DNA of 59,848 bases from Lentilactobacillus diolivorans DSM 14421 (lineage in GTDB: Bacteria; Bacillota; Bacilli; Lactobacillales; Lactobacillaceae), in NCBI RefSeq assembly GCF_001434255.1, contig NZ_AZEY01000108.1, positions 1 to 59,848 on the forward strand. The letters run 5' to 3'. Every line of letters starts with the position of its first letter. Positions within the stretch are counted from its first letter, which is position 1. Position numbers and translations under genes: made by a program. Shown in pieces: positions 63 to 59,848 of this stretch. The notes under the pieces were generated by a model that saw only the letters and a program-made list of their open reading frames with translations, had not been told where the DNA came from and made no database searches.

Positions 63-179
63 ACGTGGACGAGCAAGCAGATCCCGGCCATATAAGCCCT
101 CTAACTTGATATTCCAAGAACAGGAATATCAAGTTAGAGGGCTTATATTCTGGGATCTAACCGCTTGCTCGCCCACTCT
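63..179 (-). repeat. Stop-codon-linked covarying hairpin, copy 1
   Basis: First of ten full copies of one hairpin family. Read on the minus strand it starts AGAGTG and ends CACGTTTT. The layout is: outer stem P1 (about 14 bp, here ending CGAGCAAGC/GCTTGCTCG); an unpaired GGTTA; short stem P2 of form AGnnYCC/GGRnnCT (here AGATCCC/GGGATCT); an asymmetric internal loop (AGA opposite GGCC); then long stem P3 starting ATATAAG and closing CTTATAT, capped by a small loop. AGAGTG lies 1 nt after the TGA of the DegV gene. No T-run follows the stem, so it is not a standard intrinsic terminator. Confidence 0.9.
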
Positions 180-180
180 G

Positions 181-1020
181 TCATCCCAGTAAATAGGTAA
201 CCCCGGTTGATTCAGGACCAATAAAGCTTGCCATTTCTGGATTTGTTGCGATCATTGAAATCGGAACAAATGGGAATTCATCGCTCAACATTTTGTATAA
301 AAAAGTTGCGCGTTGTGAGCCACCAGAATGAAGAATGGCAAGTTTAACAATTCGTTCATGGTGCATCGTCCTTAACTGCTGATCCCAAAATTTGTTAACC
401 AGCTCCTCTTTTCGCCCCCGAGTGACGAATGAGAATTCATTGTTAGTGAATTGAAGAATGTATTGGACGTTCATTTGACGCTCTAGCAATCCACGCAGTT
501 TTCCGACAATTTGATGGTTAACTAATTGAAGATTGCACTGGACGGAAAAGTAGATTCGGGTGTTGTTGCGAATGTTTTCAAGATCAGATTGAATTTCATG
601 TAATGGTTTTCCCGTTTGAATGTCTTTTGCGGCGGTGGTGACTTGGTAGGCTAGGCCAGCGGCAGTGACTTGGCTATTAAGCACGGTTACCCGACTATTT
701 GTCTTTTTCGCAGCTTTAACAGCATTAGCGTAAGTATCAGTTAGTTTGTCGCTGAGATGGATTGATAGAATTTGACTACCATCCGCACCAAGTTCATCAT
801 ATGTTTTAACAAGTTTGTCAACGCTAACTTGGCCAATGACGGGTTTCTTAGTAGATTGGTTATAAAGTTGCAGGAACTTCTCACTGCTAATCTTATTAAC
901 ATAACCGTATAATTTGCCATCCACTAAAATTGGTGGGTTCATGACGTGGATATGATAATTGTGGATATCAGCTGGGGATAAATGAATGGCGGAGTCCGTT
1001 ACAATTTTGATATTGCTCAT
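181..1020 (-). CDS. DegV family fatty-acid-binding protein
   Basis: A 279-residue DegV-family protein, the usual length. Family members bind a fatty acid and present it to the FakA-type kinase for incorporation into phospholipid; that role is family knowledge, not shown here. Visible features are the N-terminal IVTDSAIHL motif, the conserved block around IHLSDKLTDTY, and a C-terminal half ending in GPESTGVTYL, where the GPG-like ligand loop is expected. The ATG at 1020 is preferred over an upstream in-frame GTG because AAGAGGTG lies at the right distance before it. It stands alone, and its stop codon abuts a hairpin repeat. Confidence 0.85.
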   Translation of the reverse strand: MSNIKIVTDSAIHLSPADIHNYHIHVMNPPILVDGKLYGYVNKISSEKFLQLYNQSTKKPVIGQVSVDKLVKTYDELGADGSQILSIHLSDKLTDTYANAVKAAKKTNSRVTVLNSQVTAAGLAYQVTTAAKDIQTGKPLHEIQSDLENIRNNTRIYFSVQCNLQLVNHQIVGKLRGLLERQMNVQYILQFTNNEFSFVTRGRKEELVNKFWDQQLRTMHHERIVKLAILHSGGSQRATFLYKMLSDEFPFVPISMIATNPEMASFIGPESTGVTYLLG

Positions 1021-1270
1021 AAAGTTCACCTCTTTGCGAATTTGATGTCATAGTAGTTATTGTACCGCAAAAAATCGATAGTTGATAAGGTTCGCAAAAT
1101 AATACCAGGAAAGTCTAATTTTGGGCATAATTAGATAAAGCACACAAGCGGTTTTGAAATTATTTATATGGGCATAAGGTTCTCTAATATTTAATGAGTC
1201 ATTAGTAAATATGAGTGAATCATTTATAATATAAGTCAGGCACTATTTCAAATGAAAGGACTCGGAAAGA

Positions 1271-1579
1271 TTGAAAGGTAAATATAAGGTTTCTCAGTAT
1301 ATTGGTGTTCCACTTGAAACGGATGATTCTGGAAATTATCAAATTAAACAGGATGAACAAGGAAATTTTAAACTTCACAGTTGGCGAACGGGAAAACATA
1401 CAAAAGGAAAATATCAGAAACTGGGACAGGTATTTATCACAGAGAATAACTTAATGGTCGCAATTGTTAAAACTATCCCGGTCGCATTTAAGGATCGTCA
1501 CGAATACACGCCATTGCAACGGTTTACGAGCGAATTTGTTTCAAATAAGTTGTTGGATAAAGCCCAAGGGAAGCTATAA
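1271..1579 (+). CDS. Conserved small hypothetical protein (102 aa)
   Basis: I do not recognise this 102-residue protein. It is basic and hydrophilic, without a signal peptide or membrane segment, and has a repeated GKY/GKHTKGKYQ flavour in its first half. The likely start is a TTG with AAAGGA about 8 nt upstream. A TATAAT-like -10 box lies at 1225-1230. It is followed by a stretch resembling a second repeat family (about 1636-1695) and by a terminator shared with the convergent next gene. Codon use and a clean ribosome binding site support a real gene; the function is unknown. Confidence 0.6.
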   Translation: MKGKYKVSQYIGVPLETDDSGNYQIKQDEQGNFKLHSWRTGKHTKGKYQKLGQVFITENNLMVAIVKTIPVAFKDRHEYTPLQRFTSEFVSNKLLDKAQGKL

Positions 1580-1635
1580 AAGTCGGTATGATAATTATTG
1601 TGGGAAAAGGTTAGGCAATTGAAGACTTTTTTGTT

Positions 1636-1695
1636 AAGCGACTGGGGCAATAATCATTTTGCTCAGTTCCTTTTGGATAGTCATAATTATTACTA
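1636..1695 (+). repeat. Degenerate intergenic repeat (CTGGGACAAT type)
   Basis: The stretch has a CTGGGGCAATAATC block, a TTGCTCAG block, then CATAATTATTAC. The same order of blocks is seen near 11000-11045, 22313-22372 and 25785-25845. At 11000 and 22313 it leads directly into the hairpin-repeat regions. Copies are too diverged for firm boundaries. Confidence 0.4.
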
Positions 1696-1707
1696 AGTGG
1701 GAATGTA

Positions 1708-1742
1708 AAAAACACCTAACACGAGTTGTGTTAGGTGTTTTT
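1708..1742. terminator. Bidirectional intrinsic terminator
   Basis: AAAAACACCTAACAC, a 5-nt loop, then the exact complement ending in TTTTT. It lies between two convergent genes and would work in both directions. Confidence 0.9.
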
Positions 1743-1754
1743 GGCCGAAAAAAA

Positions 1755-1988
1755 TTACTTTTTAAGTAACTTTTCAGCGTCTGCTTTAAGATCATCGGTT
1801 GACATGTCCATATATTTTTCCATGTCTTGACCAGTTTTCATGGTATCGTGATCGTTCTTTTCCATGTAATAATCCCAAAGAGCATCTCGTACTGGAAGTT
1901 TACTATCGCTCCAGTCGAAAGCCTCATTCATATGCTTATTCAATAATGGGGATTCTGCACCTGGTTCTTCATTAATATCTTCTGCCAT
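1755..1988 (-). CDS. Small acidic conserved hypothetical protein (77 aa)
   Basis: A 77-residue, strongly acidic soluble protein starting MAEDINEEPG and ending in a lysine-rich tail (EKLLKK). I do not recognise the family. The ATG at 1988 is chosen over a longer frame because a perfect AAGGAGG lies about 11 nt before it. It contains several WD/DYYMEK-like aromatic positions but no motif I can name. It is monocistronic, ends at the shared terminator at 1708-1742, and its promoter should lie between it and the GcvH-like gene. Confidence 0.7.
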   Translation of the reverse strand: MAEDINEEPGAESPLLNKHMNEAFDWSDSKLPVRDALWDYYMEKNDHDTMKTGQDMEKYMDMSTDDLKADAEKLLKK

Positions 1989-2077
1989 AAGTAAAACTAC
2001 CTCCTTTTTGTATCTATATCCATTATAGATCAAATTTGAAATATGCAACCATTTTTAACTCAATTCATGAAAGAATT

Positions 2078-2455
2078 TCATTTGGCAGGTCTGATTTTCA
2101 CGATCCAATTGGTTTTAGGATCGGGTTGATTCAACCGATCAATATCTTTACCAATCTCCTTGTTACGGTCAATGACTTTTCCAGCAACGGGTGATTTAAG
2201 CGTCTCTACCGACTTGTCACCTTCAATGTCTAATAGGTCATCATCAACCTGAACATCGGTAAGCTGAGTTGGAAAATCCGCGAAAGTAATCTTGCCAATT
2301 TGCTGATAAACAGATTCGTCAATTCCCAATAAATAATTGGCATCTGGATCGACTGTGTACCAGATGCCATCTTTGACCTTGGCCTCAACTGGTGCAGCTG
2401 CTTTTTTACCAGTGAAAAAAATTTTGACTTTTTGCCAGAAAGAAATTTTTGCCAT
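2078..2455 (-). CDS. gcvH: GcvH-like lipoyl carrier protein (orphan)
   Basis: A 125-residue protein with the glycine-cleavage H-protein fold. The lipoylation site sits in the block IEGDKSVETLKSPVAGKV, with the acceptor lysine expected at the DKS position (about residue 80). A basic N-terminus (KVKIFFTGKK) is unusual for GcvH. No GcvT or GcvP gene is nearby. It is instead divergent from a lipoate-protein ligase, so it may act as a lipoyl relay or storage carrier rather than in glycine cleavage (inference). The start ATG follows GAGGCGGTGTC. Confidence 0.8.
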   Translation of the reverse strand: MAKISFWQKVKIFFTGKKAAAPVEAKVKDGIWYTVDPDANYLLGIDESVYQQIGKITFADFPTQLTDVQVDDDLLDIEGDKSVETLKSPVAGKVIDRNKEIGKDIDRLNQPDPKTNWIVKIRPAK

Positions 2456-2575
2456 AATGACACCGCCTCGATATTATTTACTTCAAGTATAACGTATAAT
2501 GGACAATAGAGTTTGAAAACGGTTTATTTTGCAACATTTGAAATGAAAAATAGTGGTTTATTGGAGGGATTTACC

Positions 2576-3589
2576 ATGTACTTAATTGATATTTCTAGAA
2601 ACGGACAACCAAGCTACGACGCTCGGGTCAATCAATCACTGGATAATTATTTTGTTAACGATTTAAAGTTACCCGGCCATGGATTCATGTTTTATATTAA
2701 TAAACCATCTGTTATCATTGGGCGAAATCAGAATGCGTGGGCAGAAGTTGACATTGACTATTTGCATGAACACAAGATTGAACTAGTTCGGCGAACATCT
2801 GGTGGTGGCGCTGTTTATCATGACATGGGAAACTTTATTTTTGAAAATATTTTAACCGATAATGCTGACGACTTTGGTGATTACGCACACTTTGCAGAAC
2901 CTGTCCTGAAAGCTCTCCGTAAGTTAGGCTTAGATGTCCAAATGAAAGAAAACAGCAGCGACTTGATTTTAAATGGCAAAAAGTGGTCAGGGATGACGAT
3001 GTTTAAGAGTGGTCAGGGTTTGGCAGCCGGTGGCACGATTATGTACGATCTTAACATTGAGAATGCCAAGCGGAGTTTAACCGAGAATCAACTTGAGAAG
3101 CAAAAACGGTTGGGCGTGTTGTCAAAACGGAGTGAAATCGTCAATTTGAAGGACTATTTACCAGATGGGATGACAATGGCCGATCTTCGGGAGTACCTTT
3201 TAAAAGAGATTTTTCAAGTGAAGTCGTTAGATGACATTGAAACCTATCACATGACCGATGAGGACTGGCAGCGTGCGGATAAACGATTAGAAGAGACGTA
3301 TGGCACTGATGCTTGGAACTTTGGTCATAATCCCGGATATTATGACTACGCGGATAAAGAGCTGTCAGCGGGGAAATTAGGGATAAATTGGACCATTGAT
3401 GATGGTAAGGTTGAACATCTAAAGCTTAATCCCTTCTTTAAGCTTGATGGTGACGTGGATACCATTGAGGCTTATTTAACTGGTAAAAAGATAAGCGAAC
3501 GAGTTGTAAAAAAAGCGGTTAAGAAGGGTCACTTTGCTAATATTGATCCTGATGAATTAGCCGATTTCTTGATCGAAAAATTAGATTAA
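2576..3589 (+). CDS. lplA: Lipoate-protein ligase A family
   Basis: A 337-residue lipoate ligase, the usual LplA length. It activates lipoate with ATP and transfers it to the lysine of lipoyl domains in the cytoplasm. Visible features are the RRTSGGGAVYHD motif that forms the lipoate/ATP pocket (about residue 70-80), NGKKWSGMTMF with the conserved lysine, and a C-terminal accessory domain. The ATG at 2576 is preferred to an upstream TTG because GGAGG lies 9 nt before it. It is divergent from the GcvH-like gene, a likely substrate. Hairpin copy 2 starts 8 nt after its stop. Confidence 0.9.
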   Translation: MYLIDISRNGQPSYDARVNQSLDNYFVNDLKLPGHGFMFYINKPSVIIGRNQNAWAEVDIDYLHEHKIELVRRTSGGGAVYHDMGNFIFENILTDNADDFGDYAHFAEPVLKALRKLGLDVQMKENSSDLILNGKKWSGMTMFKSGQGLAAGGTIMYDLNIENAKRSLTENQLEKQKRLGVLSKRSEIVNLKDYLPDGMTMADLREYLLKEIFQVKSLDDIETYHMTDEDWQRADKRLEETYGTDAWNFGHNPGYYDYADKELSAGKLGINWTIDDGKVEHLKLNPFFKLDGDVDTIEAYLTGKKISERVVKKAVKKGHFANIDPDELADFLIEKLD

Positions 3590-3597
3590 TTATTTAA

Positions 3598-3711
3598 AGA
3601 GTGGGGCAAAAAACGCTTTGCTTCCAGAGTAAGGGGCTTATCCAAATATTCCGATCCTGAATATTTGGATAAGCCCCTTACACGGCCGGAAGCTGTTTTT
3701 GAGGCCTGGTT
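3598..3711 (+). repeat. Stop-codon-linked covarying hairpin, copy 2
   Basis: Begins AGAGTG 8 nt after the lplA stop. P2 is GCTTCC/GGAAGC. P3 begins GAGTAAGG and closes CCTTACAC, a paired change from the ATATAAG/CTTATAT of other copies, and its body (CTTATCCAAATATTC) is unrelated in sequence to most copies. The outer stem is the most degenerate of the set. Confidence 0.8.
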
Positions 3712-4103
3712 TAGTGACTAATCATTATTTGTTATCAACTTTTTTGTGGCACTTGATTAGTGAATAAAATTAATAAACATCTTTGTTACTAGTGTTTAAT
3801 TTGTTTGGTTAACAGTCTGACAATTAGGGATGTTAATCTGAATAAAAAGAAATCAAGTGAGAAGGCAAACCGGTCAAACCCTATTCCAGTTAGTAACCGG
3901 GTTCGCATTTTTGAGGATCAAGAAGTCATAATTTATAGTAGTTAATGGGGCGAATACAAACCGAAAAGTGATCGCAAACCAACCAACCTTAAACGAGTGA
4001 AAAGTTAGATCATACCAATTTTGATTTCGCATCAATCCGGTTCGACAGCCAAAGTAATTATCGGAACGCTAAATCTGTATTCACATTATTTTTTAAAAAA
4101 CTG
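3712..4103. other. Gene-free stretch, about 390 bp
   Basis: No open frame with a ribosome binding site is seen on either strand. A weak imperfect inverted repeat (GTGACTAATCA with TGATTAGTG) lies around 3714-3768. The rest shows no structure I can support until the promoter of the T-box leader. Confidence 0.5.
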
Positions 4104-4132
4104 TTGACAAATTCTAATCAAGTACTCATAAT
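4104..4132 (+). promoter_or_regulatory. Promoter of the T-box leader
   Basis: TTGACA at 4104-4109 and CATAAT at 4127-4132 with a 17-bp spacer, placed about 45 bp before the T-box structure begins. Confidence 0.7.
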
Positions 4133-4175
4133 ACGAACTATCAATTTGAATAACACGTTCACGTTAATTCAATTA

Positions 4176-4390
4176 CAGAGAAGTTATCCGTGGCTGAGAG
4201 GTAACGTTGGATTCGGCGAACGTTTTGTTCATGCTTTATTTTTAAGTTGGTGAGCTGAAAGGTTAGCCAGCTTCGGCGTTGGCCGTTAAAGCAATTAACG
4301 AGTGAACACAGAATCTGTGTTTATGAAGGTGGTACCGCGGCCGAATGTCGTCCTTTTGTCAATCTGACAGAAGGGCGTTTTTTATTTGCG
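4176..4390 (+). promoter_or_regulatory. T-box leader with terminator, upstream of 2-oxoacid reductase
   Basis: It contains the Stem I opening AGAGAAG with a GTTATC/GGTAAC helix, a GAGCTGAAAGG block, and the diagnostic T-box AAGGTGGTACCGCGG at 4326-4340. An intrinsic terminator follows at 4348-4385 (CGTCCTTTTGTC, loop, GACAGAAGGGCG, T-run). T-boxes sense uncharged tRNA and allow read-through when an amino acid is scarce. I could not fix the specifier codon by eye; GGATTCGG after the first helix is the region to examine. Confidence 0.85.
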
Positions 4391-4463
4391 ATTTTTTGAA
4401 CTATCCAGTTAATTGTTTTAACGACGATTCTTACATAAGAAAATGAGAAAGGAAGTTAGTATT

Positions 4464-5483: not shown

Positions 5484-5682
5484 TTGGGGATGACCCGATC
5501 ACATATTAAGCTTAAATGGTTACTATTCAAGTTAAGCTTAAATTCTCGTTATTTTGACATTTTGATTTCAGAAAATTAGCATGGACTTAGATGGATTTAT
5601 AATAATTAAGTTCTTCCTGCCCAAATTCAAATTGTTGAAAGAAGGGAAATCGTCTACCTCAATTTGAGGTAGCATTCATAAA

Positions 5683-6534: not shown

Positions 6535-6550
6535 AACAAACTCATTAATG

Positions 6551-6721: not shown

Positions 6722-6753
6722 ATATAGGTAAACAAATGAAAGGATGATTCATA

Positions 6754-8032: not shown

Positions 8033-8216
8033 TTTTTTGTTGTTCGGAGAATGATGTATTTCAAGGAAGCTGGAGAGTGCTTCTCTGCTTCCTATTATTA
8101 GTCGTTATTTGTCGTAAAGATGATAATTGGAAGGCAACCAATAGTGATTAAGCTGTCTGGACTCTGGAAGTTAAATGATCTTCGTTACCATATTGAGTTT
8201 AATAAAAAATGATATT

Positions 8217-8245
8217 AAAAAAGCCAGCGAAAAATCGCTGGCTTT
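8217..8245 (-). terminator. Intrinsic terminator of cspA-type gene
   Basis: On the minus strand, AAGCCAGCGA, a short T loop, then TCGCTGGCTT and a run of T. Confidence 0.92.
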
Positions 8246-8264
8246 CGAGTTAATAACTATTTAA

Positions 8265-8468
8265 TTAGTCGTCAACAACAGTAACGTTGGCAGCTTGTGG
8301 TCCACGGTCGCTGTCTTCAACGTCAAGGGTTACGTGTTGGCCTTCGTCTAATGACTTGAAGCCGTCTTTGTTGATAGCTGAGAAGTGAACGAATACGTCA
8401 CCATCGTCAGTAGTAATGAAGCCATAACCTTTATCAGCGTTGAACCATTTAACAGTACCTTGTTTCAT
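8265..8468 (-). CDS. cspA: Cold-shock protein, CspA family
   Basis: A 67-residue single cold-shock domain. Both RNA-binding motifs are visible: KGYGFI (RNP1) and VFVHFS (RNP2). The protein binds single-stranded RNA/DNA and melts mRNA structure at low temperature. The ATG at 8468 with AAGGAGG upstream gives the standard size; a longer frame to 8537 is spurious. The transcript has a leader of roughly 130 nt from the promoter at 8605-8633, typical of cold-shock mRNAs whose 5' region controls translation. Confidence 0.95.
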
Positions 8469-8604
8469 AATATATGAAACCTCCTTGCGCTTTTTGCGCA
8501 TCATAAATTTTAATGCATCTAGTTGAACTGATTCCAAGGAAGTTATTTCATAAAACTATAAAACAAGTACCTTTGAAAATCGACTCCTGAAACACATTGA
8601 CTAT

Positions 8605-8633
8605 AATATACCAATATTCGGGTAACCTGTCAA
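8605..8633 (-). promoter_or_regulatory. Promoter of cspA-type gene
   Basis: On the minus strand TTGACA, a 17-bp spacer, and TATATT. This gives a long untranslated leader ahead of the cold-shock gene. Confidence 0.75.
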
Positions 8634-11053: not shown

Positions 11054-11241
11054 GATGTGGAAAAATAGGCAACTTCCGGCCATGTAATTGAATTATCCAA
11101 GTATTCAATCCCGCAATATCTCGTTGAAGTTTTTTCTTAGTAGAAAAAACGTGGACCAGCAAGCAGACTCCGGCCATATAAGCCCCCTAACTTAATATTC
11201 CAAAATCAGGAACATTCCGTTGAACTTGTTACTTAGTTAAA
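11054..11241 (-). repeat. Tandem half-elements of the hairpin family (2 units)
   Basis: Two units of about 93 bp lie next to full copy 3. Each keeps the ACGTGG to GGCCATATAAG arm and the loop-proximal TATTCC/GGAA, then runs into a linker (CCGTTGAACTTGTTACTTAG-like) instead of the second arm. The first unit (from about 11054) is decayed. The start at 11149 is clear. Confidence 0.75.
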
Positions 11242-16599: not shown

Positions 16600-16873
16600 T
16601 GGAGTGAGGCAAAAGGCAACTGCCATGCAGCCAAATTATCCCAATATTTAAACCTGGAATACCTCGTTTAACTTCTTACTTAGTTGAAATGCGGTCCAAC
16701 AAATAAAACCCAGCTGTATAGCTCCTTAATTTAATATTCCAAGATCGGGAATAGCTCGTTGAACTTTTTATTTAGCTGAAACGTGGCCCAACAAGCAGGC
16801 CCCGGCCATATAAGCCCCCTAACTTAATATTCCAAAATCGGGAATATCCCGTTGAGCTTTTTATTTAGTGGAA
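16600..16873 (-). repeat. Tandem half-elements of the hairpin family (3 units)
   Basis: Units start at about 16600 (decayed), 16689 and 16781, with a period of 92-93 bp. Each has the ACGTGG arm, CCGGCCATATAAGC, TATTCC/GGAATA and the linker CCGTTGAGCTTTTTATTTAG, but lacks the second arm. A full element (copy 4) ends the row. The intergenic region around them holds no gene. Confidence 0.8.
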
Positions 16874-16990
16874 ACGTGGGCCAGCAAGCAGACTCCGGCC
16901 ATATAAGCCTCCTAACTTAATATTCCAAGATCGGGAATATTAAGTTAGGAGGCTTATATTCTGGAGTCTAACCACTTGCTGGCCCACTCT
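16874..16990 (-). repeat. Stop-codon-linked covarying hairpin, copy 4
   Basis: AGAGTG on the minus strand starts 2 nt after the ktrA stop. P1 uses GGGCCAGCAAG/CTTGCTGGCCC, P2 AGACTCC/GGAGTCT, and P3 body CTCCTAACTTAATATTCC. Confidence 0.9.
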
Positions 16991-22372: not shown

Positions 22373-22463
22373 AACGGAAACGTAGAAAGAAGGGCAACTT
22401 CTGGCAAATGCAGTTAGTTTGGAATTGACTTAACTGTGAATAATAGAATGAATGTTTACCAAA

Positions 22464-22581
22464 ACGTGCAAAGGAGCCACAGCTTCCGGCCATATAAGCC
22501 CCTTAACACCATATTCCAAATTCAGGAATATGGTGTTAAGGGGCTTATATTCTGGAAGCTAACCGTGGCTCTTTGCACTCT
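22464..22581 (-). repeat. Stop-codon-linked covarying hairpin, copy 5
   Basis: On the minus strand AGAGTG shares its first base with the TGA of the DUF2179 gene. P1 is GTGCAAAGAGCCAC with GTGGCTCCTTTGCAC, entirely different from copies 1, 3 and 4 but still paired. P2 is AGCTTCC/GGAAGCT, and P3 body CCTTAACACCATATTCC. Confidence 0.92.
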
Positions 22582-28173: not shown

Positions 28174-28331
28174 CAAACCTGGCTGACGAATGAACTAAAG
28201 CGTTACATAATGAGTTTCGGTTGTTGCTTAAGCTTGTCGCTCGGAAATAAATTAGGCTAAAAGTTTAAGCAAACATCGAAAGTGACATACAATTAAGCTG
28301 TAAGTAATTCTTGGGGAAGAAGGGATGTTAC

Positions 28332-30029
28332 ATGGTAAAGGATAAAATAGATACTCCGGCACTTTACGTAAATCCAGACCGTAGTGTTGCCGTGATCGAT
28401 TACAGCAAAAAATTTGTTAAAAATGCTTTTCAACTTGCTAATAGTGATGAGTTTCGCCAATTAGCAGCGTTATATTTGGACAATGACAGTTATCACAATA
28501 CGCCTTCTGAATTTAGCCAAGTGTCAGTTGACGACTTTATGAATACGATGAAGGATATTTTAATAGACCGGATGGCTGATTTAAAGTATCCTGTTCGGGA
28601 TATTTTAGATACGGTAAAAGATTTCTATGCCTTTTATCGATCATTGTTACGGGTTTCAACGATTAATATGCATCAAAATGATATTGTTGCCAATAACTTT
28701 ATGAATATTGACAATCATTTTAATGAATTGGTTCTTGAGCTCTATCGTAACGTTGAGGAAAAATTGCAGGGACATGCCAATCATCTTTATCGACAGGTCA
28801 ACGCGGGGACCAACGCTTGTATTTTGACGCAAACAATTAAATGGCCTGTTCCGGATATTTATGAAAAGTTGGCTGGCATTCAGTTTATTGATACATTAAT
28901 GGTTCGGCCACCAATGATGGTGCATACTAAGAGCAATAAGCGTGAGGGAACCTTTAGTGAGACCCGGCAAAATCCAATTGATAATTTTACTGGTCATCGT
29001 GACAGCTGGTACTGTTACCCTGCCTGGGTCGGCGAAAGCTTAGCTTATATTTACTTTGACCGTGATTACTTTGCCAATGGGATCGCACTTGGCAATCTGT
29101 TTCATTTAGCAGATCGGCAAACGGTTCAGGGACGCAAACCGGACATTATTTTATTGTTTGGTTCCAAGGGAGCGGAATCTGATAACGACGATGGCTGTCA
29201 CTATTATTATGATGACCAGAATCATATTTATGTTGGTCAAGTGCCTTATAATGACAAGACAACTTATTTTGGCTACATGAAGAAGATGGTATTAACGTTG
29301 CATAATCTTCACATGATTAACGTGCATAAGCTGCCAATTCATGGTTCTATGGTTAATATTACGTTCTCAAACGGTAAAACAAAATCGGTTGTCTTCTTTG
29401 GCGATAGTGGTGCCGGTAAATCTGAAGCAATTGAAGCACTTCAGGAGGTTGCCAACGACAAAATTATCAGTATTGAAACGATCTTTGATGACATGGGTAG
29501 TTTTACATTAACCAAAGATGGTAATGATATTTATGCGCAAGGAACGGAAACAGGTGCCTTTGTCCGTTTGGATGATCTGAGTTCGGAAGTTGCTTTCAGT
29601 AATATGGATTTGGGAATTTATATGAATCCGGAGTTATCTAATGCCCGATGCATTATTCCGGCTAACAGTTATGAGGAAATCATCAAGCATCATCCAGTTG
29701 ACATGTGGCTTTATGCCAATAATTACGATTCAGATATTGGGGTTCACCGGTTTGAAGACGAAGATGCGGCCAAGGATGTCTTTGTTTCAGGTAAGCGAAA
29801 AGCACTGGGAACAACGGACGAAGTTGGCATGAGTACGACGTTCTTCGCTAACCCGTTTGGTCCGGTTCAACGGCAAAAGGATACGCAGCCAATCATTGAT
29901 AAAGTCTTCCACACAATGTTTAAGAAGGGAACATTTGTCGGTGAAATCTATACCCACCTGGGTAATGACAAGAAGAAGTCGAGTTTAAACGAATCGGCGG
30001 AGAAGTTGTTGGAACTGATGATGAAGTAA
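28332..30029 (+). CDS. PEP carboxykinase/HPr-kinase-like P-loop protein
   Basis: A 565-residue soluble protein. A phosphate-binding loop FFGDSGAGKSEAIEAL lies near residues 356-371, of the type shared by HPr kinase and ATP-dependent PEP carboxykinases, followed by ETIFDDMGSF. The N-terminal 200 residues are unfamiliar and may be helical. The middle has RPPMMVHTKSNKREGTFSETRQNP. The overall length fits PEPCK, but the canonical PEPCK active-site blocks are not obvious, so substrate and reaction are unknown. The ATG at 28332 is preferred to an upstream TTG. Its stop codon abuts hairpin copy 6 directly. Confidence 0.65.
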   Translation: MVKDKIDTPALYVNPDRSVAVIDYSKKFVKNAFQLANSDEFRQLAALYLDNDSYHNTPSEFSQVSVDDFMNTMKDILIDRMADLKYPVRDILDTVKDFYAFYRSLLRVSTINMHQNDIVANNFMNIDNHFNELVLELYRNVEEKLQGHANHLYRQVNAGTNACILTQTIKWPVPDIYEKLAGIQFIDTLMVRPPMMVHTKSNKREGTFSETRQNPIDNFTGHRDSWYCYPAWVGESLAYIYFDRDYFANGIALGNLFHLADRQTVQGRKPDIILLFGSKGAESDNDDGCHYYYDDQNHIYVGQVPYNDKTTYFGYMKKMVLTLHNLHMINVHKLPIHGSMVNITFSNGKTKSVVFFGDSGAGKSEAIEALQEVANDKIISIETIFDDMGSFTLTKDGNDIYAQGTETGAFVRLDDLSSEVAFSNMDLGIYMNPELSNARCIIPANSYEEIIKHHPVDMWLYANNYDSDIGVHRFEDEDAAKDVFVSGKRKALGTTDEVGMSTTFFANPFGPVQRQKDTQPIIDKVFHTMFKKGTFVGEIYTHLGNDKKKSSLNESAEKLLELMMK

Positions 30030-30148
30030 AGAGTGCTCAAGCAAACGGTTAGCTCCCAGAATATAAGCCCCCAATTCCAATATCCCTGATTTTGGGATGT
30101 TGGAATTGGGGGCTTATATGGCCGGGAGCTGTTTGCTTGAGCACGTTT
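30030..30148 (+). repeat. Stop-codon-linked covarying hairpin, copy 6
   Basis: AGAGTG follows the stop codon with no gap. P1 is GTGCTCAAGCAAAC/GTTTGCTTGAGCAC, P2 AGCTCCC/GGGAGCT, and P3 body CCCCCAATTCCAATATCCC. All three differ from the other copies yet pair. Confidence 0.92.
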
Positions 30149-30222
30149 CGGCAAAATAACCAGTCCATTTAGCTTGGAAGCATCAAAGACCATTGGCTTA
30201 TATGGCCGGAGACTGCTTGGCT
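30149..30222 (+). repeat. Right-arm half-element after copy 6
   Basis: The linker CGGCAAAATAACCAGTC is followed by GGCTTATATGGCCGGAGACT and GCACGTTTCGGC, but no first arm. A further decayed piece follows to about 30300. Confidence 0.7.
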
Positions 30223-30388
30223 CAGCACGTTTCGGCATGGCAGCCAGATTGGTTTTGGGGCATGGCCGTTAAGCCGCTTGTGCCAGTCCATTTGGTTTGG
30301 AAATATTACTATTTTAGGCTCAAGTGCTACTGACATCGAAACATTGAACTTGGGCAAAGTTTCAAGCTTATAATTGCAAAGGCTAGAG

Positions 30389-30465
30389 CAGCTTCCTGGC
30401 CATATAAAACAGGATCCAGTCAGAAACTGACAAAATCAGCTTCTGACTGGATCCTTGTTTTGTTA
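30389..30465. repeat. Chimeric hairpin carrying GGCCATATAA
   Basis: After GCTTCCTGGCCATATAA the sequence forms a 17-19 bp stem, AGGATCCAGTCAGAA with TTCTGACTGGATCCTT, flanked by AAAACA and TGTTTT. It looks like a bidirectional terminator joined to the left motif of the hairpin family. It lies downstream of the leftward NiCoT gene. Confidence 0.6.
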
Positions 30466-30554
30466 CATTGATAGTTAACCGCTTTTTATCCCGCGCTGCT
30501 TGTATTCTGTAAGCTAATCGTTTGGTGAATCACGCGCATACTTTAGTAAAGCTA

Positions 30555-31735: not shown

Positions 31736-31829
31736 TTGATAATTAATATTCCCTTTAGCACAGACGTTACGATCACGTTTGGTTGAAAAGTTTATTAATT
31801 AACAAAGTCAGCCCTAAGAAACTTTGTTA

Positions 31830-31985
31830 TTAAGCTATTGTTCATATCCTGACTTGATTTCGACTGACAGCCTACATCTTCCCAGTTACCCAGTGATTGT
31901 CGTAGCGTCATCCATCATGCAGTACAAGAGACTGTAAAGGATTTGAACCCTTTTCCGAACCAATAACCTTTTTACTTAACGGGGT
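31830..31985 (-). promoter_or_regulatory. Cobalamin riboswitch
   Basis: On the minus strand, in order: GGGTTCAAATCC, ACAGTCTCTTGTACTGCATGA, then CACTGGGTAACTGGGAAGATG, and CGAAATCAAGTCAGGATATG, a B12-box variant. This is the order of the conserved cobalamin riboswitch core. It sits about 200 nt before the cobalt transporter, which it should repress when B12 is plentiful. Confidence 0.85.
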
Positions 31986-34333: not shown

Positions 34334-34452
34334 AGAGTGGGCCAGTGAGCGATTAGATCCCAGAATATAAGCCCCCTAACTTGATATTCCCGATTTTGGA
34401 ATGTTAAGTTAGGGGGCTTATATGGCCGGGGTCTGCTTGCTGGCGCACGTTT
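34334..34452 (+). repeat. Covarying hairpin, copy 7 (not adjacent to a stop)
   Basis: Same architecture, plus polarity, but it starts 227 nt after the glpF stop and after that gene's terminator. P2 is AGATCCC/GGGGTCT and P3 body CCCCTAACTTGATATTCC. It faces copy 8 across a 36-bp gap. Confidence 0.88.
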
Positions 34453-34488
34453 TCACTCGGTAAATCAACAAATTATTACTGAGATAAA

Positions 34489-34605
34489 ACGTGAAACAGA
34501 GAGGCAGCTCCCGGCCGTATAAGTGACTGATTCAAATATTCCAGAATCAGAATATTCGAATCAGTCACTTATACTCTGGGAGCTAAACGCCCTCTGTCTC
34601 ACTCT
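34489..34605 (-). repeat. Stop-codon-linked covarying hairpin, copy 8
   Basis: On the minus strand AGAGTG overlaps the TAG of the adenosyltransferase gene by 2 nt. P1 is GTGAGACAGAGGGC/GCCTCTCTGTTTCAC. P3 opens GTATAAG and closes CTTATAC, a compensated change of the normally invariant ATATAAG/CTTATAT pair. Confidence 0.92.
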
Positions 34606-48075: not shown

Positions 48076-48783
48076 ATGGCAACATTTTTTGGGATTGGTG
48101 TTGGTCCCGGTGATAGTGAGCTGATGACCGTCAAGGCAGTCCACACGATTGAACATCTGGATATTCTTTATACACCTAAGGCACACAAATCTGGAACCAG
48201 CGTTGCCGAGCAGATTGCGGCACCTTATTTTCCGGAGAGCTTGATGATTAAACGGCGTCATTTCCCAATGACCAATGATTGGGAAGAAAAGCGGAAAAGT
48301 TGGCAAGTGATTACAGACGAAATTGTAGCAGATGTTAAAGCGGGCAAGAATGTTGGCTTTGTGACACTGGGTGATCCATCGGTTTACAGCACATATAGTT
48401 ATTTACTTGATTTGATTGATGATCAAGTTGCGGTTGAAACTATTGCCGGAATTTCATCGTTCTCACAAATTGCCGCTGAAGTTTCCATTCCACTAACGTT
48501 GGATGATGAATTATTAGAAATTATTCCTGCAACAGCAGATGAGCAGCAGATTGCCAAGGCAATTGACGTTAACGATAATATTGTGATTATGAAGATTTCG
48601 ACCAATTTGCCCAAGATCTACCAGCTACTAAAGAAACGAAACTTGTTGACCAAAGCGTTGGTCATTTCAAATGCGTCGATGGAAAAGCAAAAAACGTTCC
48701 GGCTGTCGGAAATTAACCCGGAGGATAAGCTGCCTTATTTTTCGACAGTGTTGGTGAAAAAGAGTGCGGACGGAAGCGTTTAG
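48076..48783 (+). CDS. cbiL: Cobalt-precorrin-2 C20-methyltransferase CbiL
   Basis: A 235-residue tetrapyrrole methylase (FFGIGVGPGDSELMTVKAV; FVTLGDPSVYSTYSYL) that methylates C20. The last eight codons (KKSADGSV with stop) fall in the first arm of hairpin copy 9, so the family element supplies the C-terminus. The body is otherwise normal length, and KLPYFSTVLVKK is the usual end of the fold. Confidence 0.93.
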   Translation: MATFFGIGVGPGDSELMTVKAVHTIEHLDILYTPKAHKSGTSVAEQIAAPYFPESLMIKRRHFPMTNDWEEKRKSWQVITDEIVADVKAGKNVGFVTLGDPSVYSTYSYLLDLIDDQVAVETIAGISSFSQIAAEVSIPLTLDDELLEIIPATADEQQIAKAIDVNDNIVIMKISTNLPKIYQLLKKRNLLTKALVISNASMEKQKTFRLSEINPEDKLPYFSTVLVKKSADGSV

Positions 48784-48879
48784 ATCCCAGAATATAAGCA
48801 AATCATTTAAATATTCCTGGTTCTGGAATGTTTAAATGATTTGCTTATATGGCCGGGATCTGCTTCCGGGAGCACGTTT
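48761..48879 (+). repeat. Covarying hairpin, copy 9, forming the 3' end of cbiL
   Basis: AGAGTG starts 17 nt before the cbiL stop-codon position is reached, and the TAG lies in the unpaired TTTAG block. P3 has the unrelated body CAAATCATTTAAATATTCC, fully paired. It is the only copy that enters a coding region and the only one inside the B12 operon. Confidence 0.92.
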
Positions 48880-49130
48880 CGGCAAAGTAGCCAGTCATAT
48901 TCCGGTTCTGAATATTAGGTTTAGGTAGCTTATATGGCCGGGATCTGCTCGCTGGCGCACGTTTTGGCAAAGTAGCCGGTAAAATATTCCTGATCTTGGA
49001 ATGTTTGAATTAATCACTTATATGGCCGGGATCTGCTTCCGGGAGCACGTTTCGGCAAAGTAACCAGTCATATTCCGGTTCTGAATATTAGGCTTAGGTA
49101 GCTTAGTTCGGAGATCTATTTTCGAAAACA
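48880..49130 (+). repeat. Tandem right-arm half-elements inside the B12 operon
   Basis: Three units of about 85-88 bp follow copy 9, each with TATTCC...GAATATTAGG, CTTATATGGCCGGGATCTGC and GCACGTTT, but no first arm. Units 1 and 3 are nearly identical, and unit 2 differs. The last is decayed (GTTCGGAGATCTA). Together with copy 9 they separate cbiL from cbiM by 432 bp. A short hairpin (ACATCAGT/ACTGATGT) near 49168-49190 precedes cbiM. Confidence 0.8.
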
Positions 49131-49215
49131 CGCGTTTCAATAGGGAAAGCATTAGGGTTACAAAAGAACATCAGTCAAAAAAACTGATGTCTCAAATTAA
49201 AGGAGGAACTTCTTT

Positions 49216-53821: not shown

Positions 53822-53823
53822 TT

Positions 53824-55170: not shown

Positions 55171-56071
55171 ATTTACGGTTGGAACCCGAAAGAGTCAACT
55201 GGCAATGGTGCAGACCAAATTAGTTGTCGAGGCTTTACAGCAACATTTTCCAGATGTTAAATTTGTGATCAAGAAGATTACGACCCAAGGTGATCGAAAC
55301 CTGAAGGATAGTTTGCAAAAGATCGGTGGCAAGGGTGTTTTTGTGAAAGAAATTGAGCATCAACTGGAAGATCAATCAATTGATTTCGCGGTTCATAGTC
55401 TCAAAGATGTGATGCCTAATTTGCCGGATGATTTAACAATTGGCTGTATTCCAAAACGTAATTCACCTTTTGATTGCCTAATCACGCCGAAGCCGATTAA
55501 AGCAATTACGGATTTGCCTCAAGGTGCCAGAATCGGCACAAATAGTCTTCGTCGCCAGGGACAATTATTACATCAACGACCAGATCTGGAAATCATTCCA
55601 ATTCGGGGTAACGTTGAAACCAGGATTAAGAAGATTGCCAGCGAACATTTAGATGGTGTCGTACTTGCCGAGGCTGGATTGAATCGGCTGGGAGTTGACC
55701 TCGCCGGACTTTATCGATTAACCCTTGAAGGGGTCATCTTACCGGCGACCGGGCAAGGGGCAATTGCCATTGAATGTCGTAAAAATGATCCAGATACTCT
55801 GCAGCTATTAAGCATGATTGCAGATGAGCCAACGCGGCAAAGTGTGTTGGTTGAACGATCGTTTTTACGACGATTAGGTGGTAGTTGTAATTATCCAATT
55901 GGTGCTTATGCCTACCATGATGGTAACCAGATTCAGTTTAAAGGCTTGGTTGCGTCAGCTGATGGTAAACACTTATTTGCCAAGCACCAAGCGGGTCAGC
56001 CGGATGAAACTTTGGGCACCAAAGTGGCTGATTTGCTTATCAGCGAAGGTGCGTTGGACTTGATTCAATAA
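55160..56071 (+). CDS. hemC: Porphobilinogen deaminase HemC
   Basis: A 303-residue hydroxymethylbilane synthase. VGTRKSQLAMVQT, VHSLKDVMPNLPDD and RGNVETRIKK are the active-site blocks. The dipyrromethane cofactor Cys is in LGGSCNYPIGAYA (about residue 243). The frame to 55022 is spurious; the ATG at 55160 follows GAGAGGTGCAAAAAG. Confidence 0.95.
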   Translation: MKSEFTVGTRKSQLAMVQTKLVVEALQQHFPDVKFVIKKITTQGDRNLKDSLQKIGGKGVFVKEIEHQLEDQSIDFAVHSLKDVMPNLPDDLTIGCIPKRNSPFDCLITPKPIKAITDLPQGARIGTNSLRRQGQLLHQRPDLEIIPIRGNVETRIKKIASEHLDGVVLAEAGLNRLGVDLAGLYRLTLEGVILPATGQGAIAIECRKNDPDTLQLLSMIADEPTRQSVLVERSFLRRLGGSCNYPIGAYAYHDGNQIQFKGLVASADGKHLFAKHQAGQPDETLGTKVADLLISEGALDLIQ

Positions 56072-56109
56072 TTTTAGATACTAAAAATTAGGAAAGAAGA
56101 TATTTTATA

Positions 56110-57090
56110 ATGGTAACTTTTGATCGTCATCGTCGTTTACGTTCCAGTGTTGCAATGAGAGATTTGGTTAGAGAAAATCATCTGGATAAAGATGATTTGA
56201 TTATGCCGGTTTTTGTTGACGCAACTATCAAAGATCGTGAAGAAATTAAATCAATGCCGGGTGTCTTTCGGTACTCGTTAGACTCAATTCTTGACGAAAT
56301 TAAAACAATTGTGGATCTTGGGGTGAAATCAATTATTATTTTTGGCATCCCGGATCATAAAGATGATGTTGGTTCCGGTGCTTGGGAGGATGATGGAATT
56401 GTCCAACAGGCAATTCGCAAGATTAAAAAGGCTTATCCCGACTTAATCGTGATTGCAGATACCTGCATGTGTGAATATACGTCAACTGGCCACTGCGGGA
56501 TTGTTAAGGATCATAAAGTCTTAAATGACGAATCTTTAGTTTATCTTACGGATACGGCGGTCAGCCAGGTAAAGGCCGGCGCCGACATTATTGCACCATC
56601 CAATGCAATGGACGGATTTGTTGCTGCAATTCGTGAAGGCTTGGACAAGAATGGATTTAAAGAAACACCGATCATGTCATATTCCGTCAAATATGCCTCA
56701 AGTTTCTACGGTCCATTTCGGGATGCAGCTGACGGTGCGCCTAAATTTGGTGATCGGAAGGGTTACCAAATGGATCCGGCTAATCGTCTTGAAGCCCTTC
56801 GTGAAGTTGCCAGTGATGAAAAGGAAGGTGCCGATTTTGTAATGGTTAAACCTGCAATGGCCTTCCTGGATGTGATGCGTGATGTCCGCGACCGGACTAA
56901 TTTACCATTAGTGGCCTACAATGTTTCCGGTGAATATGCAATGATTAAAGCAGCTGCCCAAAACGGTTGGATTAATGAAGACCAGATCGTTAAAGAAACT
57001 TTGGTTGGTATGAAGCGCGCTGGTGCTGATCTCATCATTACTTATTTTGCCAAGGATGCAGCTAAACGAATGAACGAACAAAGGTGGTAA
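56110..57090 (+). CDS. hemB: Delta-aminolevulinic acid dehydratase HemB
   Basis: A 326-residue porphobilinogen synthase. The zinc-binding cysteines are in [15 protein letters not shown] (about 118-132), so it is the zinc type. Schiff-base lysines are in [13 protein letters not shown] (about 194) and [12 protein letters not shown] (about 247). AGGAAAGAAGAT precedes the ATG. A 38-bp gap after hemC is short enough for one transcript. Confidence 0.96.
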
Positions 57091-57097
57091 TCAAATC

Positions 57098-58390
57098 GTG
57101 TTAAATTTCGAAAAGTCTAAGCAAGCGTTTAAAGAATCAAGCCAATATATGCCGGGTGGTGTTAATAGTCCCGTTCGAGCATTTAAGAATGTTGGTGGCG
57201 ACCCACTTTTTATTGAAAAAGGGGCTGGCTCACATATTTTTGACATTGACGGTAATGAGTATATTGACTACGTGTTATCATGGGGTCCGTTAATTTTAGG
57301 CCACGCCGATCCGAAAGTTGTTAAAGATTTACAGGATGCTACCACCCGTGGAACCAGTTATGGTGCACCAACTTTATTGGAGACAGAACTTGCTAAGAAA
57401 ATCCATGAAATCGTGCCATCAGTTGAAATGATGCGAATGGTTTCATCTGGTACCGAAGCAACTATGAGTGCTATTCGTCTTGCTCGTGGTTATACACACC
57501 GAGATAAAATTGTTAAGTTTGTTGGTAACTATCATGGCCATAGTGATTCTCTGCTTGTTGATGCCGGTTCAGGTGTTGCAACGTTTAATGTTCATGATGC
57601 TCCGGGTGTTCCAAAGGACTTGGCTTACGATACATTAACGGTTGCCTACAATGATGTTGCCGGCATTAAGAACGTCTTCAAAGCTCATGGAGATGAAATT
57701 GCTTGTGTCATTGTTGAACCAATTGCCGGTAACATGGGAGTTATTCCGGGAACAAAGGAATTTCTGCAAACGCTGCGTGACTTAACCACTGAATCGCATT
57801 CACTATTGATTTTTGATGAAGTCATGTCGGGCTTTCGGGCTGCTTATCATGGCGCGCAGGATCTTTATCAGATTAAGCCGGATTTAACCACGCTCGGTAA
57901 AGTTGTTGGTGGCGGTTTACCGGTTGGTGTCTTTGGTGGTCGTCGCGATATTATGGAATACATTACGCCGGACGGCCCGGTTTACCATGCCGGAACTTTA
58001 TCTGGAAATCCATTAGCGATGACTGGTGGGTTGAGTACCCTTGAACAATTGAATGATGATTTGTACAAGCAAATGTTTGCTCGGACTGATGAATTGACCC
58101 GGGGGATTAAGCAGGCAGCTGATGATCACCACGTTCCTGTTACGGTTCACCATGTCGGAACAATGTGGAGTTACTTCTTTAACAAAGGCCCTGTCAATAA
58201 TTTTGCTGATGTTCAAAAGAGTGATGTTGATTACTTCGCAAAATTCTTTAAAGCGCTATTGCAACACGGCGTTTATACGGCACCGTCTCAATTTGAAACC
58301 AACTTTATGTCCAGTAAGCATACAAAAGAAGATATTCAAAAGACAATTGCGGCTTTTAACGCAGCTTTTGATGATGTTTCTGAGGGATAA
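57098..58390 (+). CDS. hemL: Glutamate-1-semialdehyde aminomutase HemL
   Basis: A 430-residue PLP enzyme making 5-aminolevulinate. [17 protein letters not shown] opens the protein, [16 protein letters not shown] and [10 protein letters not shown] are cofactor blocks, and the PLP lysine is in [15 protein letters not shown] (about 267). The GTG start follows AAAGGTGGTAATCA. It overlaps no neighbour and leads directly to the cblS-like gene. Confidence 0.96.
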
Positions 58391-58393
58391 TAG

Positions 58394-59146
58394 ATGAAAA
58401 ATACACAATTTCGCGATCTTTCGCTCATCCCGTTAAGTAATGATGACTTATTGGTGATTGCCTGCGACTGCAGCGCCGGAATTGGGGAGAAACAAGCGGA
58501 CATGGTGGCGGTTGATACGGCTATTATGGCCGCTTATTCTTTGCGGGTCCCATTGATGGAGTTGATTAGTTTTGGTGCTCAACCAATTGCTGTGGTTGAT
58601 ACGATTGGAAATGAAATGGTCCCAACTGGACAACGAGCAATCAAAGGTATTAAAAGTGAACTGGCTAAAGCCTCACTTTCTGGGCTTCCCCTTAACGGTA
58701 GTACTGAGGATAACATGGTCACAAAAACAACTTCTGTTGGGGTAACGGTGATTGGCCGGATTGCTAAAAAGAATTTGCCCAGCATCAATAGTGACGATTT
58801 GACCATCTTTCAGTTAGGAATCCCATATGTTGGTGAAACAGTTAAGCAACATTTAAACGATATTTTTTCGTATGACATTGTTCGGCAGATTAAACGTGAT
58901 CCAGCTGTTATTGATATGCTGCCGGTGGGGTCAAAGGGCATTCAATACGAGGCAGATCAGATGGCGGCTACTCACGGGTTGGCCCTTAAGAAACCGACTC
59001 AATGGGATGATGTCAAAATGAAACAGTCGGCTGGTCCAGCGACGGTTTTATTAGCCGGCGTCGAAACATCACAGGCTGATAACTTCCAGAAGCGATTTCA
59101 AGGACTTAAGCCAATTGCACTTTTAGTAAAGGAGGATGAAAAATGA
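58394..59146 (+). CDS. cblS: PurM/AIR-synthase superfamily kinase, CblS-like (alpha-ribazole kinase)
   Basis: A 250-residue protein of the PurM/ThiL/HypE-like ATP-binding fold: ACDCSAGIGEKQADMVAVD resembles the Asp-rich metal and ATP loop, and SVGVTVIGRIAKK the second strand-loop. CblS of Listeria and Geobacillus, an alpha-ribazole kinase, belongs to this superfamily and lies with CblT in B12 clusters. That is the best call, but sequence alone does not exclude another small-molecule kinase. It overlaps cobU by 4 bp (ATGA), so the two are coupled. Confidence 0.7.
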   Translation: MKNTQFRDLSLIPLSNDDLLVIACDCSAGIGEKQADMVAVDTAIMAAYSLRVPLMELISFGAQPIAVVDTIGNEMVPTGQRAIKGIKSELAKASLSGLPLNGSTEDNMVTKTTSVGVTVIGRIAKKNLPSINSDDLTIFQLGIPYVGETVKQHLNDIFSYDIVRQIKRDPAVIDMLPVGSKGIQYEADQMAATHGLALKKPTQWDDVKMKQSAGPATVLLAGVETSQADNFQKRFQGLKPIALLVKEDEK

Positions 59147-59736
59147 CTGCCAAAATCATGTTAGTTACTGGTGGGGCAAAGAGTGGTAAATCAGTCTTTG
59201 CGGAACAGCAGTTAGCGAATGATCAACGAATTTGCTACATTGCCACGGGAGTCATGACTGCTCCGGATCAGGAAATGCAATTGCGGATTAAACATCATCA
59301 GGCACGACGACCGGCCACATGGACAACCGAAGAACGGTATGAAAATTTGGCACAATTCGTGGTCGACCACCGATTCGATGGCTACCTGTTGGATGATGCC
59401 ACAATGGTTGTGACAAATTTATTTTATGAAATGATGAGAACGTTGGCAGTAAACGATGCGGGATCAATTGATGAAGCCGTGGAAAAGTTGGATAAGAATG
59501 CAATTGACCAGGTTCAAAATGAAATTTTTAGTGAGTGGCAGGCGTTATTAACAGCTGTTAAAGAAACGGATCAGCGAATGGTTATCGTCACGAACGAAAC
59601 GGGTCTGGGAATTGTCCCGGCAAATAAGCAAACCCGAATTCTAAGAGATATCTATGGGCAGGTAAACCAGTTAATAGCCAAGGCGGCTAATAAGGTCTAT
59701 CTGGTGGTGAGTGGTATTCCGGTGAAAATTAAATAG
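59143..59736 (+). CDS. cobU: Adenosylcobinamide kinase/guanylyltransferase CobU
   Basis: A 197-residue bifunctional enzyme that phosphorylates adenosylcobinamide and attaches GMP, activating it for the CobS step. The P-loop is TGGAKSGKSVFAEQ (residues 9-22), and the guanylylated His is expected in RIKHHQARRPATW (about 47). ATNETGLGIVP-type block VTNETGLGIVPANKQTR is conserved. GGAGGATGAAAA is the ribosome binding site. The TAG overlaps hairpin copy 10 by 2 nt. Confidence 0.94.
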   Translation: MTAKIMLVTGGAKSGKSVFAEQQLANDQRICYIATGVMTAPDQEMQLRIKHHQARRPATWTTEERYENLAQFVVDHRFDGYLLDDATMVVTNLFYEMMRTLAVNDAGSIDEAVEKLDKNAIDQVQNEIFSEWQALLTAVKETDQRMVIVTNETGLGIVPANKQTRILRDIYGQVNQLIAKAANKVYLVVSGIPVKIK

Positions 59737-59848
59737 AGTGTTCAAAGAAGCGGTTAGATTCCAGAATGTAAGGCCCCTAGACCTAATATTCTGGTTCTGA
59801 ATATTAGGTCTAGGGGCCTTACATGGCCGGAATCTGCTTCTTTGAACA
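59735..59848 (+). repeat. Stop-codon-linked covarying hairpin, copy 10 (cut by window end)
   Basis: AGAGTG overlaps the cobU stop by 2 nt. P1 is TGTTCAAAGAAGC/GCTTCTTTGAACA, P2 AGATTCC/GGAATCT, and P3 opens GTAAGG and closes CCTTAC, with body CCCCTAGACCTAATATTC. The window ends inside the closing arm, before the expected CGTTT. Confidence 0.92.

Follow-up and report, generated by a model that had tools for sequence, protein, structure and literature searches.

The stretch of DNA analyzed here, referred to as the window, comprises 59,848 nucleotides (nt) of Lentilactobacillus diolivorans DSM 14421 (NZ_AZEY01000108.1, positions 1 to 59,848) and carries ten copies of a hairpin of about 119 nt, five of them on the minus strand (63, 11242, 16874, 22464, and 34489). 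All ten had been listed in the original prediction and were recovered within a few bases of the positions given there; overlooked at that stage were 3' half-units trailing the copies at 11240, 16872, 30030, and 48761. A covariance model (R1) was built from nine of the copies, with that at 3598 excluded as degenerate; against R1 it scored 69.7 bits, compared to 112 to 136 bits for the other nine. Gene neighbors were taken from our own calls of open reading frames (ORFs), and gene names in the window were assigned from Pfam. The hairpins and their half-units are as follows.

61..179, minus strand: full hairpin, 1 nt past the stop of a DegV-family gene; R1 score of 136 bits
3598..3712, plus strand: degenerate full hairpin, 8 nt past the stop of a lipoate ligase gene; R1 score of 69.7 bits
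11040..11087, minus strand: 3' arm, second trailing half-unit; nhmmer score of 30.4 bits
11142..11188, minus strand: 3' arm, first trailing half-unit; nhmmer score of 46.1 bits
11240..11360, minus strand: full hairpin, 3 nt past the stop of an OsmC gene
16687..16778, minus strand: half-unit 2 (92 nt), decayed, behind the full hairpin at 16872
16779..16871, minus strand: half-unit 1 (93 nt), behind the full hairpin at 16872
16872..16990, minus strand: full hairpin, 2 nt past the stop of a TrkA/KtrA-type gene
22462..22581, minus strand: full hairpin, overlapping the final base of a DUF5698/DUF2179 gene
30030..30148, plus strand: full hairpin, directly past the stop of ORF 28311-30029; R1 score of 135.8 bits
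30149..30232, plus strand: half-unit (84 nt), 3' arm at 30193-30245
34334..34452, plus strand: full hairpin, 227 nt past an MIP gene, beyond a terminator-like hairpin (by eye)
34487..34605, minus strand: full hairpin, first two bases within the stop codon of a cobalamin adenosyltransferase gene
48761..48879, plus strand: full hairpin, containing the TAG stop of ORF 48076-48783 in a GTTTAG stretch
48880..48964, plus strand: half-unit 1 (85 nt), behind the full hairpin at 48761
48965..49052, plus strand: half-unit 2 (88 nt), behind the full hairpin at 48761
49053..49137, plus strand: half-unit 3 (85 nt), decayed, behind the full hairpin at 48761
59735..59848, plus strand: full hairpin cut by the window end; it reaches 59853 in the contig, where its last bases are N

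The copies had been described as intergenic, which captures their placement in part: eight of the ten start −2 to +8 nt from a same-strand stop codon, the copy at 48761 contains the stop (ending at −23), and the copy at 34334 lies far from one (227 nt). The first two bases of the copy at 59735 fall within the stop of a CobU gene, and half-units follow it in the contig. Functions of the upstream genes in the window are varied. A further hairpin at 30395-30520, with TGGCCATATAAAA at its left foot, is perhaps a degenerate reverse copy.

Each unit opens with AGA and continues with stem P1 (14 pairs), a GNTT bulge on the 5' side, P2 (7 pairs), an AGA/GGCC internal loop, and P3 (about 26 pairs around a 7-nt loop), ending in a GTTT trailer. 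When the fold energy of each copy was compared with 200 dinucleotide shuffles, z scores ranged from −7.7 to −14.3, with 0 of 200 shuffles reaching the native value in every case. To assess covariation, the nine window copies were aligned to this P1/P2/P3 structure and evaluated against 500 shuffles. Pairing was retained in 97.6% of cells, and it fell to 40 to 44% when partners were shifted by one column; both sides had changed in 31 of the 47 pairs, compared with 14.2 in shuffles, none of which (0/500) reached 31; no shuffle equaled the real alignment on any of the measures. Covariation also held in wider sets: 41 of 47 pairs covaried among 33 sequences chosen from 5 genera, and 44 of 47 among 27 chosen from 6 families. 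These results agree with the original observation that the stems vary in both arms yet remain paired. The accompanying claim that loops and bulges are constant applies to the AGA leader, GNTT bulge, and GTTT trailer, with cross-genus identities in the two alignments of 0.98, 0.83 to 0.85, and 0.94 to 0.95, respectively; it does not extend to the terminal loop (0.63 to 0.68), which is conserved no better than the stems (0.60 to 0.62).

Searches of the 3.26-Mb genome demonstrated that the window samples a much larger family. Among the best 150 candidates scored, of 1,402 obtained in a first look, 142 matched R1 at E ≤ 0.001; at least one pair of these represents the two strands of a single palindrome, and we estimate about 140 or more full copies in the genome. 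The exact string CTTATATGGCC occurs 206 times, compared to 4 times for its reversed control. Within 1.17 Mb of this genome, distinct copies among the best 150 matches number 114, and this set is the base of all position, defect, and array counts given below for this genome. A second Lentilactobacillus genome of two contigs (G006), used as the comparison species, holds 70 distinct matches in 0.8 Mb. The expectation that a covariance model would uncover many genomic copies was thus borne out, with at least 142 R1 matches here and the family present in relatives.

Eight of the 11 relatives returned by one gene search were named Lentilactobacillus. With up to 45 candidates scored per genome, R1 matched 22 of 80 genomes including this one, namely 15 of 23 other members of the genus, each with between 14 and 45 scored matches, and six from other Lactobacillaceae genera. 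A broader model (R2), built from 33 chosen sequences of five genera, matched 170 of 301 Lactobacillaceae genomes in 23 of 40 genera (best 12 candidates scored in each) and 120 of 395 sampled Lactobacillales genomes in 37 of 80 genera and seven family codes (best 9 scored in each). Long palindromes alone can score weakly, so 22 of 30 fetched loci, from eight genomes of five other families, were read individually; most conserved positions of the leader, TTAG, TAAG, CTTA, and trailer were kept, with exceptions that include the trailer in one genome (G411). An open frame of at least 180 nt ends −24 to +14 nt from the AGAG end in 15 of these 22 loci, a count made without a control. Copy numbers differ widely between species. 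Rfam, searched with the window and with 16 loci at E ≤ 1, placed no family on the hairpins at or above its gathering cutoff, and only sub-threshold microRNA-precursor models fell on them, in keeping with the statement at the outset that no named family with this consensus was known.

Adjacency to stop codons extends beyond the window. A same-strand gene precedes 93 of the 114 copies, and 51 of the 114 start −2 to +5 nt from the upstream stop, where random placement of the same elements in their own intergenic gaps (2,000 trials) gave a mean of 6.6 and a maximum of 13. The same holds for G006 (25 of 70 copies; random mean 3.4, maximum 10). The stop ends at −2 in twelve of the 114 copies, such that the first two bases of the element are part of it, and at −23, as a TAG beside the bulge, in eight. 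On plasmids, deposited annotation places the element 0 to 6 nt from a stop in five of eight stretches, which come from L. plantarum, L. backii (twice), Enterococcus faecalis, and a record labeled E. coli. Two of these records have peculiarities of their own. In L. backii plasmid NZ_CP014625, the hairpin that follows fabI has an ISL3 transposase gene starting immediately after its first half, and the insertion sequence appears to have inserted into that hairpin. The E. coli record (OL539428) carries an Enterococcus-like stretch in which a predicted efrB efflux gene ends 2 nt before the hairpin; this stretch is probably contamination or misassembly.

To determine which strand is under selection, isolated non-Watson-Crick positions within helices were counted on the element's own strand, which is mostly the sense strand of the upstream gene; the score treats G·U and A·C alike, and copies containing N were skipped. 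Across distinct contexts, G·U outnumbered A·C by 62:14 in this genome and 58:6 in G006, and clustered defects, which were set aside, gave 66:11 and 98:6. Given this excess of G·U on the sense strand, we conclude that the fold of that strand is selected and that the selected molecule is probably RNA. A DNA cruciform should lack a G·U preference, whereas a single DNA strand in transposition could show one; RNA is therefore the likelier but not the only reading. Together with covariation within the genome, across genera, and across families, and with the conserved leader, bulge, and trailer, the bias upholds the earlier proposal that structure rather than sequence is selected.

This bias, the conserved leader, bulge, and trailer, and the place right behind stop codons would all suit a true 3'-untranslated-region (3'-UTR) regulatory or stabilizing RNA class that is kept for each host gene, with dispersal being secondary. 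Such a class would be expected at orthologous genes, and there it is missing. The hairpin behind the KtrA gene was absent in all eight relatives with a name, one of which has a flank of just 65 nt. That behind the lipoate ligase gene was absent in every one of the 20 relatives read from the 23 in the genus; 13 of these 20 have a lipoate ligase with at least 77% protein identity. The copies are dispersed and lineage-specific. With upstream functions as varied and interspecies differences as wide as those described above, we regard an RNA class of this kind as rather unlikely.

Stem pairing could also persist without selection, if template switching during replication copied one arm onto the other, a published mechanism (PMC8794818). 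Five of the 114 copies fit, being perfectly paired through the internal loop, and one of the five has lost the bulge as well. The other 109 lack this pattern although their arms differ, and arm copying alone predicts no bias of G·U over A·C, where a strong one is observed. As a full account we consider template switching improbable; arm-to-arm copying of the published kind nevertheless seems to act as well and may account for part of the stem perfection.

Further evidence for mobility came from empty sites, which were found for two of six queried loci, both in E. faecalis. At the first, an intrinsic terminator stem-loop of about 25 bp occupies the element's place; the flanking A tract and T tract are the same in both states, and the joints are fixed except for the few bases of ambiguity that these tracts allow. 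At the second, 24 bp that fold as a weak predicted stem-loop stand in place of the 169 bp of the filled state. No target-site duplication was present at either site, where instead a target of 24 to 25 bp was lost; the classical combination of a miniature inverted-repeat transposable element (MITE), terminal inverted repeats with a target-site duplication, is thus lacking at these two sites. A duplication had also been considered for the repeated GGTAAC tail and was rejected, as the tail is much alike whatever the flank. That the empty state is the older is suggested by the dispersal of the element.

The records behind the empty sites are labeled phage, yet their sequence agrees with that of the E. 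faecalis chromosome. The entries for Enterococcus phage Efs 1-1-1, IME_EF3, and Listeria phage LM 4-11-1/4-14-1 are unannotated clones that seem to be host DNA, as do the other matches of Enterococcus queries in phage-labeled records; the window query itself had no match among phage records. Similarly, NZ_CP143580, a 747-kb E. faecalis "plasmid," is probably a chromosome piece because it carries a ribosomal protein operon and other core genes.

For Lentilactobacillus, the indirect sign of replacement is a shared symporter locus. Both this genome and an L. plantarum plasmid encode the symporter (435 amino acids), with 100% identity between the two proteins. A single hairpin stands at the symporter stop on the plasmid, complete except for the last three P1 pairs and the trailer; this genome has a different full hairpin at the stop, with the 3' arm of the plasmid's hairpin behind it as a half-unit.

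Plain intrinsic terminators would likewise lie at the 3' ends of genes, and the second hairpin of the E. faecalis unit does abut a T tract. The long hairpin itself is followed by GTTT and mostly YRGC, with no T tract, and a separate terminator remains at KtrA; we therefore find this explanation very improbable.

A mobilizing gene was sought in several ways. Repetitive extragenic palindrome (REP)-like elements are moved by Y1 transposases (RAYT/TnpA), and the hairpin is palindromic, dispersed, and extragenic, in a genome with three Y1 matches. No Y1 match was found in 17 of 24 genus genomes, including G006 despite its 70 distinct copies in 0.8 Mb; Y1 was accordingly rejected as the mover, and this mechanism is largely refuted for the genus as a whole. 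A retroelement or group II intron derivative was also rejected, since reverse transcriptase (RVT_1) had no match in this genome or in G006 and occurs in 8 of 24 genus genomes. An autonomous parent was sought as a 5' arm and a 3' arm lying as much as 6 kb apart. The search covered 1.17 Mb here and 0.8 Mb in G006 and yielded six long arm pairs, of which the one examined (C72:28274) has an assembly gap in the hairpin. Runs of N also lie inside or beside other hairpins (C60 just past window base 59848, C72:77284, and C22:50255), as if the assembly broke at them.

Half-units were one-sided. One to four 3' half-units trail 67 of the 114 full hairpins, with lengths of about 80 to 98 nt where read. 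Lone 3' halves number 144, compared to 12 lone 5' halves; 115 of the 144 lie behind a same-strand full hairpin and none in front of one within 300 nt. Mean scores at ranks 1 to 4 were 41.8, 37.2, 40.1, and 29.8 bits (n = 67, 33, 13, and 2), compared to 45.0 bits for full units, so a steady decay with rank was weakly borne out. Half-units at ranks 2 and 3 are closer to their own full unit than those at rank 1 are, which gives most arrays the appearance of local tandem repeats. Such repetition builds the arrays alongside repeated insertion.

Taken together, the ten copies are probably non-autonomous mobile hairpins of a type that occurs in several Lactobacillales families, is akin to the Enterococcus repeat Efa-1, and inserts by stem-loop replacement. 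Support comes from the dispersal, the stop adjacency, the covariation, the sense-strand defect bias, the one-sided half-units, and the two E. faecalis empty sites. In the mechanism we propose, a unit would insert by replacing an existing stem-loop, for example a terminator or a hairpin that arrived earlier behind a stop codon. This would often leave it in the 3'-UTR of the upstream mRNA, its AGAG end beside the stop. Older units would lose their 5' arm and persist as trailing 3' half-units. After insertion the stems would drift while the sense-strand fold is kept, most likely as RNA. By analogy with E. faecalis, Lentilactobacillus copies may insert by the same replacement. Judging from sequence, the hairpin likely gives the upstream mRNA a strongly folded 3' end, and it might shield or shape such ends. 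A more tentative possibility is that the hairpin spread through the Lactobacillales by swapping for existing hairpins, among them terminators past stop codons and its own earlier copies, without a transposase of its own. Each locus would keep a newest-first record, the latest unit at the stop codon and truncated earlier ones after it, with host hairpin-processing and replication enzymes as the movers.

Several observations weigh against mobility by replacement. Four of the six queried loci gave no empty site; at the second site the stem-loop is only weakly predicted, and the copy there is not behind a same-strand stop, the adjoining gene end being on the other strand. Beyond the array at KtrA there is still a terminator resembling the one in the relatives, and none was replaced there (by eye). 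An opposite-strand gene lies upstream of 21 of the 114 copies, and three of the eight annotated plasmid stretches, all Enterococcus, have the element 52, 74, and 324 nt from a stop. Of the 144 lone 3' halves, 29 have no listed full unit in their vicinity. The half-units of a given array often nearly duplicate each other; being mostly local tandem repeats of one another, most were amplified locally rather than left as independent fossils. Against a 2:1 mutation-bias null, the G·U excess is weaker here (p = 0.005) than in G006 (1e-5). The searches for Y1, RVT_1, and split arms found no mobilizing gene, and the window copies do not have the second hairpin of the Enterococcus form.

If the ten copies are mobile hairpins of this kind, previously unexplained hairpins in 120 of 395 sampled Lactobacillales genomes are connected with a single structural family and with an Enterococcus repeat that has been all but forgotten. 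The natural empty and filled sites offer material for studying stem-loop replacement, an unusual type of insertion. With such hairpins right behind the stops of at least dozens of genes in a genome, the 3' ends of mRNAs could be reshaped, and annotation and assembly could be confused as well.

Other RNA features of the window include an Rfam match to the cspA thermoregulator at 8216-8627 (minus strand, 97 bits) and a cobalamin riboswitch at 31822-31980 (minus strand), which points away from the cobalamin genes on its right. A T-box-like leader that contains GGTGGTACCGCG and ends like a terminator was recognized by eye at 4170-4400; the ORF at 4443 follows it.

The family shares traits with several groups of bacterial repeats. 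BOX elements of Streptococcus pneumoniae are modular structured repeats with a repeatable block; in the present family, likened to BOX by description and not by sequence, the repeated block trails a complete hairpin. According to PMC3733652, REPs are extragenic palindromes of 20 to 40 bp with RAYT transposases, and REPs and bacterial interspersed mosaic elements (BIMEs) are likewise dispersed and extragenic, with a conserved tag beside variable stems; our element differs in its 119 nt, its AGAG/GTTT ends, and the lack of a Y1 gene in many carriers. The Bacillus cereus repeats bcr1-bcr18 are also dispersed in a Gram-positive genome, about half are transcribed, often within UTRs, and bcr1-bcr3 are MITE-like; the accessible portion of that source reports neither stop-codon adjacency nor trailing half-units for them (PMC3446304). 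L. plantarum supermotifs (LPSM) are intergenic and cruciform-like lactobacillus repeats, far longer at 800 to 1,000 nt and reported only in L. plantarum (PMC5643018). No description of the element in lactobacilli was found in the open-access literature, subscription papers lying mostly outside its scope.

The closest likeness is to Enterococcus. The E. faecalis and E. faecium elements read are about 170 bp long and consist of two adjacent hairpins, the second terminator-like; the first hairpin matches R2 at 53.9 and 51.3 bits, respectively, and AGAG, GTTTA, TAAG, CTTA, and CGTTT are shared with the window family. In addition, a two-hairpin form occurs in this genome in 12 copies selected because a GGGACAAA-type hairpin trails them (e.g., C22:92360 and C45:13951); their trailing terminator hairpin, of GGCTGGGACAAAA type, is like that of the Enterococcus form; none of the 12 has a same-strand stop codon within 20 nt. 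Efa-1 is presumably the same repeat as EFAR. Venditti et al. (2007) reportedly described EFAR elements as miniature insertion sequences whose targets are stem-loops of 24 to 37 bp, mostly deleted upon integration; the stem-loops of about 25 and 24 bp at the two E. faecalis empty sites would fit this. PMC2267715 presents Efa-1 as a 163-bp repeat of E. faecalis that lies between genes, with 65 copies, 18 of them complete, and two adjacent stem-loops. EFAR is named as a MITE of enterococci in PMC3733652. The original prediction of a functional RNA without named relatives was not supported as stated, the element being dispersed and lineage-specific with Enterococcus kin that resemble Efa-1, and the match to a known MITE named there as a counterargument is found in part, as that resemblance (PMC2267715). 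Like Efa-1, the window family is dispersed, multi-copy, palindromic, and mainly intergenic; unlike it, the copies form one 119-nt hairpin rather than two stem-loops (by eye), carry tandem 3' half-units and quite different stems, and belong to a family present in several other families of the order. Likened by description only, the first hairpin is probably homologous to that of Efa-1. Since the window copies do not have the second hairpin, we place them, on the same descriptive footing, as a variant of the EFAR-type non-autonomous mobile hairpin rather than as members of Efa-1/EFAR.

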